A stretch of 41,351 bases of DNA, taken from contig JAUNPJ010000028.1 in assembly GCA_030536755.1 (NCBI GenBank), forward strand, positions 1 to 41,351, read 5' to 3'. A model generated the notes under the pieces. That model saw nothing but the letters and a program-made list of their open reading frames with translations. It ran no database searches and was not told the DNA's origin. Of this stretch, positions 2,712 to 25,403 are shown one piece after another (positions within the stretch are counted from its first letter, which is position 1; each line of letters starts with the position of its first letter). The stretch comes from Eubacteriales bacterium. Lineage in GTDB: Bacteria > Bacillota > Clostridia > Lachnospirales > Lachnospiraceae. The translations under genes and the position numbers were made by a program.

Positions 2712-4784
2712 TTATTCTTCTTTTGGTTTCTGCATTACATACCCACAATGTTCATCCGCACATACCAGCTTATTTCCCTTCTCAAGCATGTAGCCTCCGC
2801 ATTGAGGACATCTTTCTTCTGAAGGCTTCTGCCATGTCATAAACTCACACTCCGGATTATTTTCACAGCCATAATATTTCCGTCCTTTTTTTGTTTTCTT
2901 CAATACGACATCACCGCCGCACATCGGACATTGTACACCGATTTTCTCATAATAAGGCTTCGTATTACGGCATTCCGGAAATCCCGGACATGCCAGGAAT
3001 CTTCCATGAGGACCATATTTGATCACCATATTTCGCCCGCATTCCTCACAGATGATATCGGTAACCTCGTCCTCAATTTTCACTGCTTCCAGCTCCTTTT
3101 GGGCAGCCTCTACAGCCTCATGCAGATCCGGATAGAAATTGCTGACAACTGTTTTCCATTTTACACTGCCATCTTCCACCTTGTCCAACAGATCCTCCAT
3201 GGTAGCAGTAAAATTCACATCCACAATACTTGGGAATGCCTGCTTCATGATATTATTGACTACTTCCCCAATCTCTGTGATATAAAGATTTTTATTTTCC
3301 TTTGCGACATATCTTCTCGCCAGCAGGGTTGTGATCGTCGGCGCATAAGTACTTGGACGCCCGATTCCCAATTCTTCCAGTGTTTTTACAAGAGAAGCTT
3401 CTGTATAGTGTGCCGGCGGCTGTGTGAAATGCTGCTGCGGATCAAATTCTTTCAATGTCAGTTTGGAATTTTCATCCAATGTTTTAGCCAACAGATTCGA
3501 GTTCTTCTTTTCGTCTCCATCCTGGGTATACACAGACATGAATCCATCGAAAATCATCTTGGAAGCAGATACCGTAAATACATACTCTCCTCCATTGATT
3601 TTTACAGATGTTGTCTCATATTTTGCCGGACTCATACGGCTTGCCACAAATCGTTTCCAGATGAGCTGATACAGACGATACTGGTCTCTTGACAGAGAAT
3701 CTTTCAAAGAGATCGGTGTTCTTGTGACATCCGTCGGACGAATGGCCTCGTGTGCATCCTGAATTTTTTTACCATTTTCCTGCTTTTTCGCAGCTTTTAC
3801 TGTGTAATCATCTCCAAATTCCCGACTGATATACTCTCTCGCTGCTGTATCGGCCTCTTCAGAAATACGAATAGAGTCTGTACGCAGATAACTGATCACA
3901 CCCACCGTTCCATTGCCTTTGATATCAATTCCTTCATACAGCTGCTGCGCAAGGCGCATCGTCTTTTGTGTCGAAAAATTCAGAGTTTTGGCAGCTTCCT
4001 GCTGTAAAGTACTCGTAGTAAAAGGATTCGGCGCCTTTTTCATGCGCTCCCCTTTTTTCACTTCAGCCACACGATAAGAAACTCCCTCCAGTTCACTGAG
4101 AATCTTTTTCATCTCCTGCTCACTGTGGATTTCTATTTTTTTATCTTTGCCATAGAATTTGGCACGCAGCGGCTTACGCTCGCCCTCTACCTGAAAATCT
4201 GCCTCCAAAGACCAGTATTCTTCCGGAATAAAGGAATTAATCTCATCTTCTCTGTCACCGATCAGGCGAAGTGTGACAGACTGTACACGACCAGCGCTTA
4301 ATCCACGCTTTACTTTTGCCCAAAGCAGCGGGCTGATCTCATATCCCACCATACGGTCCAACATACGACGAGCCTGCTGTGCGTCCACAAGATTCATATC
4401 AATTTCTCTTGCCTGTTTAATAGAAGCTTTTACAGCAGTTTTTGTAATTTCATTAAATGTAATCCTGTGCATTTTACTCTCATCTGCTTTCAGAGCAGTC
4501 TTCAAATGCCAGGAAATCGCCTCCCCCTCACGGTCGGGGTCAGTTGCAAGATATATTTTATCCGCTTTCTTGGCTGACTTACGCAAAGCTGCCAACAGTT
4601 CTCCCTTTCCGCGGATTGTAATGTATTTCGGTTCAAAGTCATGCTCAACATCAATTCCCAACTGACTTTTAGGCAAGTCTCTGACATGCCCGTTCGATGC
4701 TGCCACCTCATAATTACTCCCCAAAAACTTTTTGATTGTTTTTACCTTCGCAGGTGATTCTACAATAACAAGATATTTTGCCAT
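2712..4784 (-). CDS. topA: DNA topoisomerase I (type IA)
   Basis: Relaxes negative supercoils by cutting one DNA strand through a 5'-phosphotyrosine. The 690-residue protein begins MAKYLVIVESPAKVK. An in-frame ATG nine codons upstream exists, but the 4784 start has the AGGAGA ribosome-binding site. The Toprim domain is at the N-terminus with DPDREG at 82-87, and the catalytic tyrosine is about residue 299 in SYLRTDS. Three C-terminal CxxC-type zinc ribbons begin near 579, 619 and 659, as in full-length bacterial TopA. Upstream dprA and yifB face the same way, but topA also has its own promoter (4877-4905). Confidence 0.97.
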   Translation of the reverse strand: MAKYLVIVESPAKVKTIKKFLGSNYEVAASNGHVRDLPKSQLGIDVEHDFEPKYITIRGKGELLAALRKSAKKADKIYLATDPDREGEAISWHLKTALKADESKMHRITFNEITKTAVKASIKQAREIDMNLVDAQQARRMLDRMVGYEISPLLWAKVKRGLSAGRVQSVTLRLIGDREDEINSFIPEEYWSLEADFQVEGERKPLRAKFYGKDKKIEIHSEQEMKKILSELEGVSYRVAEVKKGERMKKAPNPFTTSTLQQEAAKTLNFSTQKTMRLAQQLYEGIDIKGNGTVGVISYLRTDSIRISEEADTAAREYISREFGDDYTVKAAKKQENGKKIQDAHEAIRPTDVTRTPISLKDSLSRDQYRLYQLIWKRFVASRMSPAKYETTSVKINGGEYVFTVSASKMIFDGFMSVYTQDGDEKKNSNLLAKTLDENSKLTLKEFDPQQHFTQPPAHYTEASLVKTLEELGIGRPSTYAPTITTLLARRYVAKENKNLYITEIGEVVNNIMKQAFPSIVDVNFTATMEDLLDKVEDGSVKWKTVVSNFYPDLHEAVEAAQKELEAVKIEDEVTDIICEECGRNMVIKYGPHGRFLACPGFPECRNTKPYYEKIGVQCPMCGGDVVLKKTKKGRKYYGCENNPECEFMTWQKPSEERCPQCGGYMLEKGNKLVCADEHCGYVMQKPKEE

Positions 4785-4876
4785 TTTTTGTCTCCTAAAT
4801 CTAATCAGCACTTTCAGCAGCTATGCTGACTGCCGGGCCCTCCCTCAACAACAGACGTTCCGTCCAAATCCAGTCC

Positions 4877-4905
4877 ACTATACAACAATTTTTTCGTACT
4901 TTCAA
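4877..4905 (-). promoter_or_regulatory. topA promoter
   Basis: TTGAAA (4900-4905) and TATAGT (4877-4882) on the minus strand are spaced 17 bp apart, giving a leader of about 85 nt before the topA ATG. The leader includes a GC-rich segment near 4830 with possible hairpins. The MITE-like element ends 33 bp upstream of the -35 box. Confidence 0.75.
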
Positions 4906-4946
4906 GTCTTTCTGCACAAAATTCTTGTAATTACTTCCCACACATC

Positions 4947-5089
4947 GTTACTGTTCACTCCGTTCACAGTAACTTAGCCAAAATTCATTCCAGATTGCCT
5001 TCGGCAATGGAATTTTGGCTTGTATGTCTCGGGATTTTGGCATATTCATGCCAAAACACCTCGCGGGATAGTGCCGTGTGAACAGTAAC
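4947..5089. mobile_element. MITE-like non-autonomous element with 12-bp terminal inverted repeats
   Basis: The 143-bp element begins GTTACTGTTCAC (4947-4958) and ends with its exact inverse GTGAACAGTAAC (5078-5089). The octamer CACACATC lies directly on both sides (4939-4946 and 5090-5097), as expected for a target-site duplication. Inside are three stem-loops: a terminal one using GTTACTGT/ACAGTAAC (4947-4973), one on GCCAAAATTC/GGAATTTTGGC, and one on TTTTGGCAT/ATGCCAAAA. There is no coding capacity. It fills most of the 344-bp gap between dprA and topA. The transposase family that moved it cannot be named from this window. Confidence 0.85.
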
Positions 5090-5128
5090 CACACATCTCA
5101 AAAATTTCTTCTATCATTCTATCGATAC

Positions 5129-6007
5129 TCAGGAAAATTTAGAACTTTTGACATAATAATTCTTGCTGATTTCAATCACAATCTGCTCCAGCTGCAATTC
5201 GAGAAGTGCCCCCTGCACCTGTTGTATATCATAAGGAACCCTACGGCATAAATCTTCCAGAGAAATCGGCGTGGTATCCAACTGTCTATAGATGTATTGT
5301 GCCTCCGCAGACATCTGCAAAACTTTTCTCTGACGAAAATTTTCCGCCAGTATGCTTTTTTCCATCCCCAGTTCCTGCAAAATCATATCCGGTGAACAAG
5401 CAATTCCGGCCCCCTGTGCGATCAGACGGTTGCATCCTTCACTCAACACATCCCCAACTCTCCCCGGGAGTGCATAAACCGTTTTTCCCTGCTCCAGTGC
5501 ATAATCTACGGTAATCAGAGAGCCGCTGTGGCGACGTGCCTCTACGACCACAATCACATCCGACAATGCACTGATAATACGATTTCTTGCCGGAAAAAAA
5601 TATGGCCGGGCCTGTGTTCCTTCTGGCTGCTCCCCTAAAATCCCGCCGCCGGATTCCAGAATTTTATCATAAATCCTCTGATTGGCTCTCGGATAGCATA
5701 CATTCACATCATTCGCCAGTACTGCATAAGTGGGTGTTTTTCCCTTCATAGCTCCTGCATGCGCCTCCCCGTCGACTCCCAGTGCAAGCCCACTGATAAT
5801 CTGTACCCCTTCCTGACTGAGTACCCGCGCAAATTCTGACGCCATATTCCTTCCATAATTGCTGCAGGAACGCGCCCCCACAATGGCAACCGAGGGCTTG
5901 TCATCTGCCGGAAGATTTCCCCGAACATACAGAATTTCCGGCATCTGATTCAATCTCTTCAAACGAAGCGGGTAAGCATCATCCGTTTTCTTTACTATTT
6001 TTATCAT
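5129..6007 (-). CDS. dprA: DNA processing protein DprA (Smf)
   Basis: DprA binds incoming single-stranded DNA and loads RecA during natural transformation; many non-competent Firmicutes keep it. The 292-residue protein has the Rossmann-like DprA core with SGLALGVD at about 72-79 and FPARNRI near 138-144. A small winged-helix-like domain (about 230-290) ends the protein. It starts near the core with almost no N-terminal SAM-like domain, similar to short DprA forms. The gene lies 20 bp downstream of yifB, a comM-type gene also linked to transformation, so the two are probably one operon. Confidence 0.95.
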   Translation of the reverse strand: MIKIVKKTDDAYPLRLKRLNQMPEILYVRGNLPADDKPSVAIVGARSCSNYGRNMASEFARVLSQEGVQIISGLALGVDGEAHAGAMKGKTPTYAVLANDVNVCYPRANQRIYDKILESGGGILGEQPEGTQARPYFFPARNRIISALSDVIVVVEARRHSGSLITVDYALEQGKTVYALPGRVGDVLSEGCNRLIAQGAGIACSPDMILQELGMEKSILAENFRQRKVLQMSAEAQYIYRQLDTTPISLEDLCRRVPYDIQQVQGALLELQLEQIVIEISKNYYVKSSKFS

Positions 6008-25385: not shown

Positions 25386-25403
25386 GTTACTGTTCACAGT
25401 AAC
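25386..25403. repeat. 18-bp palindromic element related to the MITE termini, with flanking direct repeats
   Basis: GTTACTGTTCACAGTAAC equals the terminal stem-loop of the element at 4947-4973 with 9 bp removed between its two GTTCAC copies. TGTATGCA (25378-25385) and TGTATGCC (25404-25411) flank it, a 7-of-8 direct repeat suggesting a target duplication. It lies between eno and the secG promoter and could also act as a small hairpin in RNA. Confidence 0.65.

Follow-up and report, generated by a model that had tools for sequence, protein, structure and literature searches.

A 143-bp MITE with a three-hairpin interior in Lachnospiraceae genomes, and its likely mobilisation by divergent IS66-subgroup transposases

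A short, strongly folding tract between two genes of a Lachnospiraceae bacterium raises the question of whether it is a mobile element and, if so, which enzyme would move it and what its interior is. The window (the whole stretch of DNA that was analysed, 41,351 nt, contig JAUNPJ010000028.1 of the Eubacteriales bacterium assembly GCA_030536755.1) carries at positions 4947–5089 an element of 143 bp that has no coding sequence, is bounded by exact inverted ends of 12 bp, and is flanked by a target duplication of 8 bp, which is where a preliminary description made from the sequence had placed it. The left inverted end, GTTACTGTTCAC, lies at 4947–4958 and its exact inverse at 5078–5089. The interior forms three hairpins, H1, H2, and H3: the inner arm of H1 is an inverted repeat of the left end with two mismatches, and H3 consists of a variable stem-loop between the near-invariant tracts GTCTCGGGATTTT (5026–5038) and AAAACACCTCGCGGGAT (5053–5069). 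The features are as follows.

4939..4946, plus strand: left copy of the target duplication, 8 bp, CACACATC, read from the sequence
4947..4973, plus strand: left end, the terminal hairpin H1 (GTTACTGTTCACTCCGTTCACAGTAAC), of which the first 12 bp make up the left inverted end
4976..5020, plus strand: hairpin H2, AGCCAAAATTC...GAATTTTGGCT with an inner stem; two-sided changes in type-A elements
5025..5070, plus strand: hairpin H3, the alpha core; two-sided changes in the upper stem, core used as bait
5078..5089, minus strand: right inverted end GTTACTGTTCAC, continuing inward as ACGGCACT; the last 14 bp equal the ends of the IS66-like elements L253 and L255
5090..5097, plus strand: right copy of the target duplication, 8 bp, CACACATC, read from the sequence
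25386..25403, plus strand: 18-bp palindromic remnant of the same family, GTTACTGTTCACAGTAAC, with flanks TGTATGCA / TGTATGCC that match at 7 of 8 positions

When folded as RNA, the plus strand of positions 4939–5097 reached −58.9 kcal/mol, whereas shuffled sequences averaged −33.4 (z −7.3, with 0 of 200 shuffles as low), and the other strand gave a z of −5.0. No ORF of at least 90 aa overlapped the element, so that the hairpin-rich, non-coding character noted earlier was confirmed. A search of positions 4400–5600 with the Rfam covariance models, at E up to 1, yielded no match to the element; the sole hit was weak, outside the element, and under its gathering score. The element sits in a 317-bp gap between the minus-strand ORFs 2712–4811 and 5129–6007, which are topA and dprA by the naming of the preliminary description only. 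The 33-bp spacing to a topA −35 box given there is correct when measured between the duplication at 4939 and the promoter-like TTGAAA that starts at 4905 on the minus strand.

In the host genome, which comprises 3.84 Mb in 145 contigs, the exact 12-mer occurred 61 times, compared with 2 occurrences of the pattern read backwards. With the 159-base stretch as the query, at least 41 matches were obtained in this genome (40 of the 67 candidates being scored). At least 20 of the host copies, the window copy counted, were full-length at 96–100% identity, which suggests, as far as sequence identity dates it, that the element spread recently in this host, and a sister family was represented by at least 10 copies at 74–76% identity. 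The remaining host matches were partial, several of them at contig ends, and several contigs stopped inside copies. Outside the host, the core pattern was found in at least 95 stretches of GTDB contigs, from Blautia wexlerae, other Blautia, Oliverpabstia intestinalis, [Ruminococcus] faecis, a Fusicatenibacter MAG, and others; because the exact core served as the bait for this collection, the conservation of the core within it is partly a selection effect. A covariance model built from 20 diverse elements matched 22 of 150 Lachnospiraceae genomes (21 of 149 genera), while in a class-level sample it matched 1 of 245 genomes, the host itself, the sample including at least 8 other members of the family and about 236 genomes from outside it; both searches ran under stricter filters, and the match numbers per genome are minimum values.

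Insertion has left direct traces at many of these copies. When the ends were called by motif alone, an exact 8-bp duplication flanked 19 of the 22 copies in the host and 40 of the 68 from public loci (36 further copies without callable ends stand outside these counts), whereas mismatched flank pairs agreed in 0 of 462 host and 1 of 4,556 public comparisons. The joined flanks of 101 copies were searched against the collected loci and gave five spanning hits, of which three were clean empty sites: that of the L043 copy in L152, that of the L152 copy in L043, and that of the L123 copy in L133. One of the remaining two was weak, at 71% identity, and the other was the window locus, where the genome G150, from the host genus, has the same two genes adjacent, without the element and also without approximately 33 bp of the flank. 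The preliminary description had named the finding that would count against a mobile element, namely the same DNA at this locus only, with no other copies and no empty site. The family as a whole escapes this case, although for the window copy none of the spanning hits is a clean empty site. The 18-bp site at 25386–25403 was too diverged in both G150 and G136 for a call between insertion and deletion. Being non-coding and shorter than about 500 bp, with inverted ends, a duplication of fixed length, dispersed copies with empty sites, and ends that match those of an IS, the element is, on sequence grounds, a MITE; the earlier reading as a MITE-like element is thus strengthened by the copy number, the 8-bp duplications, the three clean empty sites elsewhere, and an IS subgroup whose ends match.

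This IS subgroup emerged from a search with PF03050 of 15 of the 22 model-positive genomes, which gave 13 matches in 6 of the 15. One of them, in locus L230, was enclosed by the inverted ends GTTACTTTTCACGGGG, and its 581-aa protein, P0001, scored 64.4 bits against PF03050 (cut-off 23.1, E 1.5e−17), which marks it as an IS66 DDE transposase; against NF033517 it gave an E-value of 7.8e−40 and yet 137 bits, under the 180-bit cut-off. Matches to P0001, some weak, were present in 14 of the 150 family genomes. Of the 19 loci in the P0001 subgroup, 7 carried GTWWCTGTTCAS ends in pairs, 1.2–3.2 kb apart and with no more than one mismatch, compared with 0 of 14 other IS66 loci, for some of which an end may fall beyond the available flank, and the reversed-pattern control gave 0 in both sets. 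The set of 19 omits L252, which is the same as L230, and the fragments L268–L276; many of its 12 loci without paired ends are likewise fragments. Among the seven IS elements with paired ends, only L253 (2,358 bp, with ORFs of 89 and 558 aa) had a target duplication, GCCGGAAT; five had none and L255 begins at a contig end. The window element shared with these IS elements only its 11–14 terminal bases, 14 being identical in L253 and L255, and the sister family shared 17 bases with L259 at one end and 12 at the opposite one; three more internal hits of 11–13 bases had E ≥0.025. In L230, L253, L255, and L257, an extra ORF of 89–105 aa lies ahead of the transposase, while L259 has one long ORF of 487 aa; the small ORF of L230 (100 aa) matched nothing in Pfam or NCBIfam at E 0.001. 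In L255 and L257 this small ORF (99–105 aa) lies on the minus strand, at 1784–2083 (start MAIIKQHDKRSGITYVY) and 3147–3464, respectively.

An alignment of five P0001 relatives detected two stop-free copies in G150, one of them with 16 terminal bases identical at each end, and no subgroup transposase in G136, another genome of the genus. In the host genome, P0001 had no match, and the five-relative alignment found only an N-terminal IS66 remnant. The MITE was present in 6 of the 14 transposase-bearing genomes against 16 of the 136 others (one-sided Fisher p 0.007, uncorrected for relatedness); the 8 transposase-bearing genomes without a MITE match include the genomes that carry the paired-end elements L255, L257, and L259, and the ten IS-bearing or G150 loci (38.7 kb) contained no MITE match. 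The preliminary description had left the mobilising transposase unnamed, and there is now a strong candidate, although no intact copy of it was seen in the host: a divergent IS66-family transposase is, from the agreement of the ends, the likely mobiliser. Other candidates were set aside. Classical IS66 elements, at the host loci L155 and L158 and at 12 loci elsewhere, had no paired ends of this type. Two host stretches considered as autonomous elements, C23:75550-78740 and C87:10322-13537, have unrelated genes between ends that are either shortened copies or chance matches. A search of 168 loci for elements of 300–7,900 bp with these ends and a duplication gave none. The host remnant, at L278 1333–1989 on contig C69, has GTAACTATTCAG upstream and may be what is left of the mobiliser of the sister family.

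We therefore consider the element, with a probability of roughly nine in ten, to be a non-autonomous MITE that resembles an IS at its ends only, that would be moved in trans by divergent IS66-subgroup DDE transposases with ISBst12-like ends, whose interior is a three-hairpin unit rather than a decayed IS, and whose copies later shrink by deletion. In the proposed mechanism, a transposase of this subgroup would recognise the GTTACTGTTCAC ends and place the element mostly in intergenic DNA, duplicating 8 bp, and the copies would afterwards shorten by deletion, for example to 27 or 18 bp, with the duplication mostly kept.

The interior was compared among diverse elements. The length was 142–145 bp in 98 of 103 kept copies, in a tally whose ends were chosen in favour of a duplication and from which 24 of 127 core-bearing copies had been excluded by a boundary-score and length filter. 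The main alignment, A1, contained 20 of 21 dereplicated elements (L119 being left out, and the window copy standing for L003). Within it, the pairs of H1 and H3 were formed in 96.2% of cells, against 88.0% in shuffled alignments and 33–52% in slid ones, and two-sided compensatory changes occurred in 10 of 26 pairs, that is, in 5 of 8 in H1 and 5 of 9 in the upper stem of H3; the lower stem of H3, with two-sided change in 0 of 9 pairs and six that never vary, gives no covariation support. H2 occurs in at least two types. In type A (12 elements), the pairs were formed in 98.0% of cells and 7 of 17 pairs had a two-sided change; type B is an unrelated hairpin at the same place in the sister families (8 elements), with 97.3% paired and two-sided change in 4 of 10 pairs. 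The covariation score exceeded all 500 shuffles in each of the three alignments (H1 with H3, H2 type A, and H2 type B), under a control that takes no account of relatedness among the elements, and the number of further pair types did not rise above the shuffles, of which 42, 469, and 215 of 500 were as high in A1, H2 type A, and H2 type B, respectively. The outer inverted ends also covaried (94.2% paired, 4 of 12 pairs). The flanks of H3 and an unpaired CACC were constant in the 20 diverse elements while the adjacent stem varied, in a set for which the core had been the bait.

The right-hand core also exists in more than one form. Ten elements of 130–157 bp (L118, L179–L181, L183–L186, L188, and L198) have the same ends, the same H2 and, by eye, the same H1, and a different, beta core, roughly TGAATCA..TTCTTACGG-hairpin-CCTG. 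In their alignment, which L182 and L189 stand outside, two-sided change was seen in 15 of 32 predicted pairs, with a consensus fold that pairs the outer ends and not H1. The genome G102 has three 233-bp versions (L232, L233, and L234) with approximately 90 extra bases in H2, each flanked by an exact 8-bp repeat. As part of the explanation that we favour, the interior would not be a decayed partner IS but a three-hairpin unit of near-fixed length despite strong divergence.

Shortened forms of the element were also examined. At host loci, all nine free 27-bp forms of family 1 were flanked by a repeat, exact in seven and with no more than one mismatch in the others; among nine 18-bp forms the repeat was exact in three, had one mismatch in two and two mismatches in two, and was absent in two; and three of four free 27-bp forms of family 2 had an exact repeat. 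Further lengths, from a search that required an exact repeat, were 28, 30, 43, 45, 46, 53, 55, and 79 bp. The duplications retained at the 27-bp forms would also be expected if these had been inserted as such, with H1 acting as a minimal transposon with two facing ends. The family-2 forms lend this possibility some weight: the three duplication-flanked host forms all end in CAGATAC (CAGTTAC and CAGTAAC being permitted by the search as well), whereas CAGTTAC is the terminus of the full-length family-2 elements listed, and the longest tract common to both places would yield CAGTTAC, so that these forms fit a deletion less well. Direct insertion of 27-bp units is nevertheless unlikely in our judgement, because both family-1 lengths can be derived from direct repeats inside the element, ACAGTAAC fitting the 27-bp deletion and GTTCAC the 18-bp one, because the 45-, 46-, and 79-bp forms, known from copies with exact duplications, resemble ordinary internal deletions, and because a lone 12-bp end within an apparent 8-bp repeat in L201 fits, by eye, a deletion by a 4-bp slip. 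Loss of the interior by deletion thus stands as the preferred origin of the short forms, which we infer from these repeats.

The fold could alternatively reflect a function at the host genes, the element being a regulatory or terminator cassette, an array of RNA hairpins under selection at topA and at other sites, with mobility incidental. The strong fold, the covarying hairpins, and the position between dprA and topA are all compatible with such a role, as is the gene context of the family. Among 84 copies from host and public loci with 700 bases on either side, none lay inside an ORF of at least 100 aa (the definition of a gene used here), and the gaps were tandem in 53, divergent in 28, and convergent in 3; the last figure compares with 13.9% expected by gap length (p 0.0017, with a background from public loci only), so that convergent gaps appear to be avoided. 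On the other hand, the orientation of the element in tandem gaps was mixed (31 opposite, 22 same), which speaks against a role in cis of one strand, and no terminator-like site was found on either strand of positions 4700–5200, where shuffles averaged 0.2. The dispersed insertions, their target duplications and empty sites, and the presence of both genes side by side without the element in G150, likewise fit poorly with a cassette, and we regard this explanation as very improbable. The suggestion that the hairpins end the yifB-dprA message is at odds with the absent terminator-like site, the mixed orientation, and the few convergent copies (3 of 84), and that of insulation of the topA promoter found no support beyond position and fold; the single window copy may have an effect on topA.

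A more serious alternative concerns the hairpins alone. Template switching in inverted repeats perfects hairpins and is an established mutational process. The stems and their covariation could thus have arisen from DNA events, with no selected role as an RNA or as a binding site for a protein, and we give this a considerable chance, somewhat short of even. It accords with the lack of a fixed orientation of the element relative to genes, with shuffles uncorrected for relatedness, and with the numbers of further pair types, which the shuffles often equalled; the constancy of CACC and the H3 flanks beside a changing stem, in elements collected by that core, and the narrow range of lengths argue against it. 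Because the shuffles ignore relatedness and template switching can itself perfect hairpins, selection on the fold is only plausible. More tentatively still, and with lower odds than DNA events alone, H1/H2/H3 might be a selected nucleic-acid module, with at least two H2 types and at least two right cores (alpha and beta), that owes its spread in Lachnospiraceae, on IS66-type ends, to an activity of the folded strand, which would either bind the transposase or a host protein or serve as a small RNA in promoter-side gaps.

The MITE reading can be set beside known systems. ISDge4 of Deinococcus geothermalis is, in the portion of PMC12898284 that deals with it, an active and autonomous member of the ISBst12 group of IS66, a single-ORF group, with a 449-aa transposase, the ends GTGACTACTCAGCA / GTAACTGCTCAGCA, and an 8-bp direct repeat, CCTCGATG. 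Its end GTAACTGCTCAGCA resembles the right end of the sister family, GTAACTGTTCAGCA, and the 8-bp direct repeat upon insertion and the IS66-type transposase are common to both systems as far as that portion describes them; in contrast, the window element has no gene, and the putative partners L230, L253, L255, and L257 have the further 89–105-aa ORF. Type II bacterial MITEs (QMITE2 and Chunjie, in the relevant sections of PMC10969869) are likewise 50–500 bp long and intergenic, with inverted ends, direct repeats, a stable fold, and shortened copies; as we read those sections, their likeness to the partner is limited to the inverted ends. They differ in that the interior of the window family is a three-hairpin unit with modules exchangeable across genera. 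The main text of that review has no occurrence of IS66. The pneumococcal repeats RUP and BOX, in the part of PMC3049150 that treats them, are also short and structured, with inverted ends and target duplications; BOX is modular, and movement of RUP in trans by IS630-Spn1 was hypothesised there. Their sequences and ends differ from those of the window family, and BOX, RUP, and SPRITE are in excess between convergent genes in that account, whereas the window family avoids such gaps (3 of 84).

A search of open-licence PMC, partly by best-ranked papers, returned no paper on such a repeat, and the end strings gave papers that were unrelated, as judged by title and the opening of the abstract. With the present analysis, Blautia and related common gut bacteria gain a widespread genomic repeat family together with its likely mobiliser; some of the intergenic hairpins that their genomes contain probably represent the element or remnants of it. 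The many natural copies make the role of the conserved folded interior accessible to testing. A plasmid collection searched for the element gave no match. Among unannotated 'Bacteriophage sp.' records from human faeces, seven matched the element, two of them over most of its length; these short records, MT839053.1 and MT839183.1, contain near-full copies and may be bacterial fragments.
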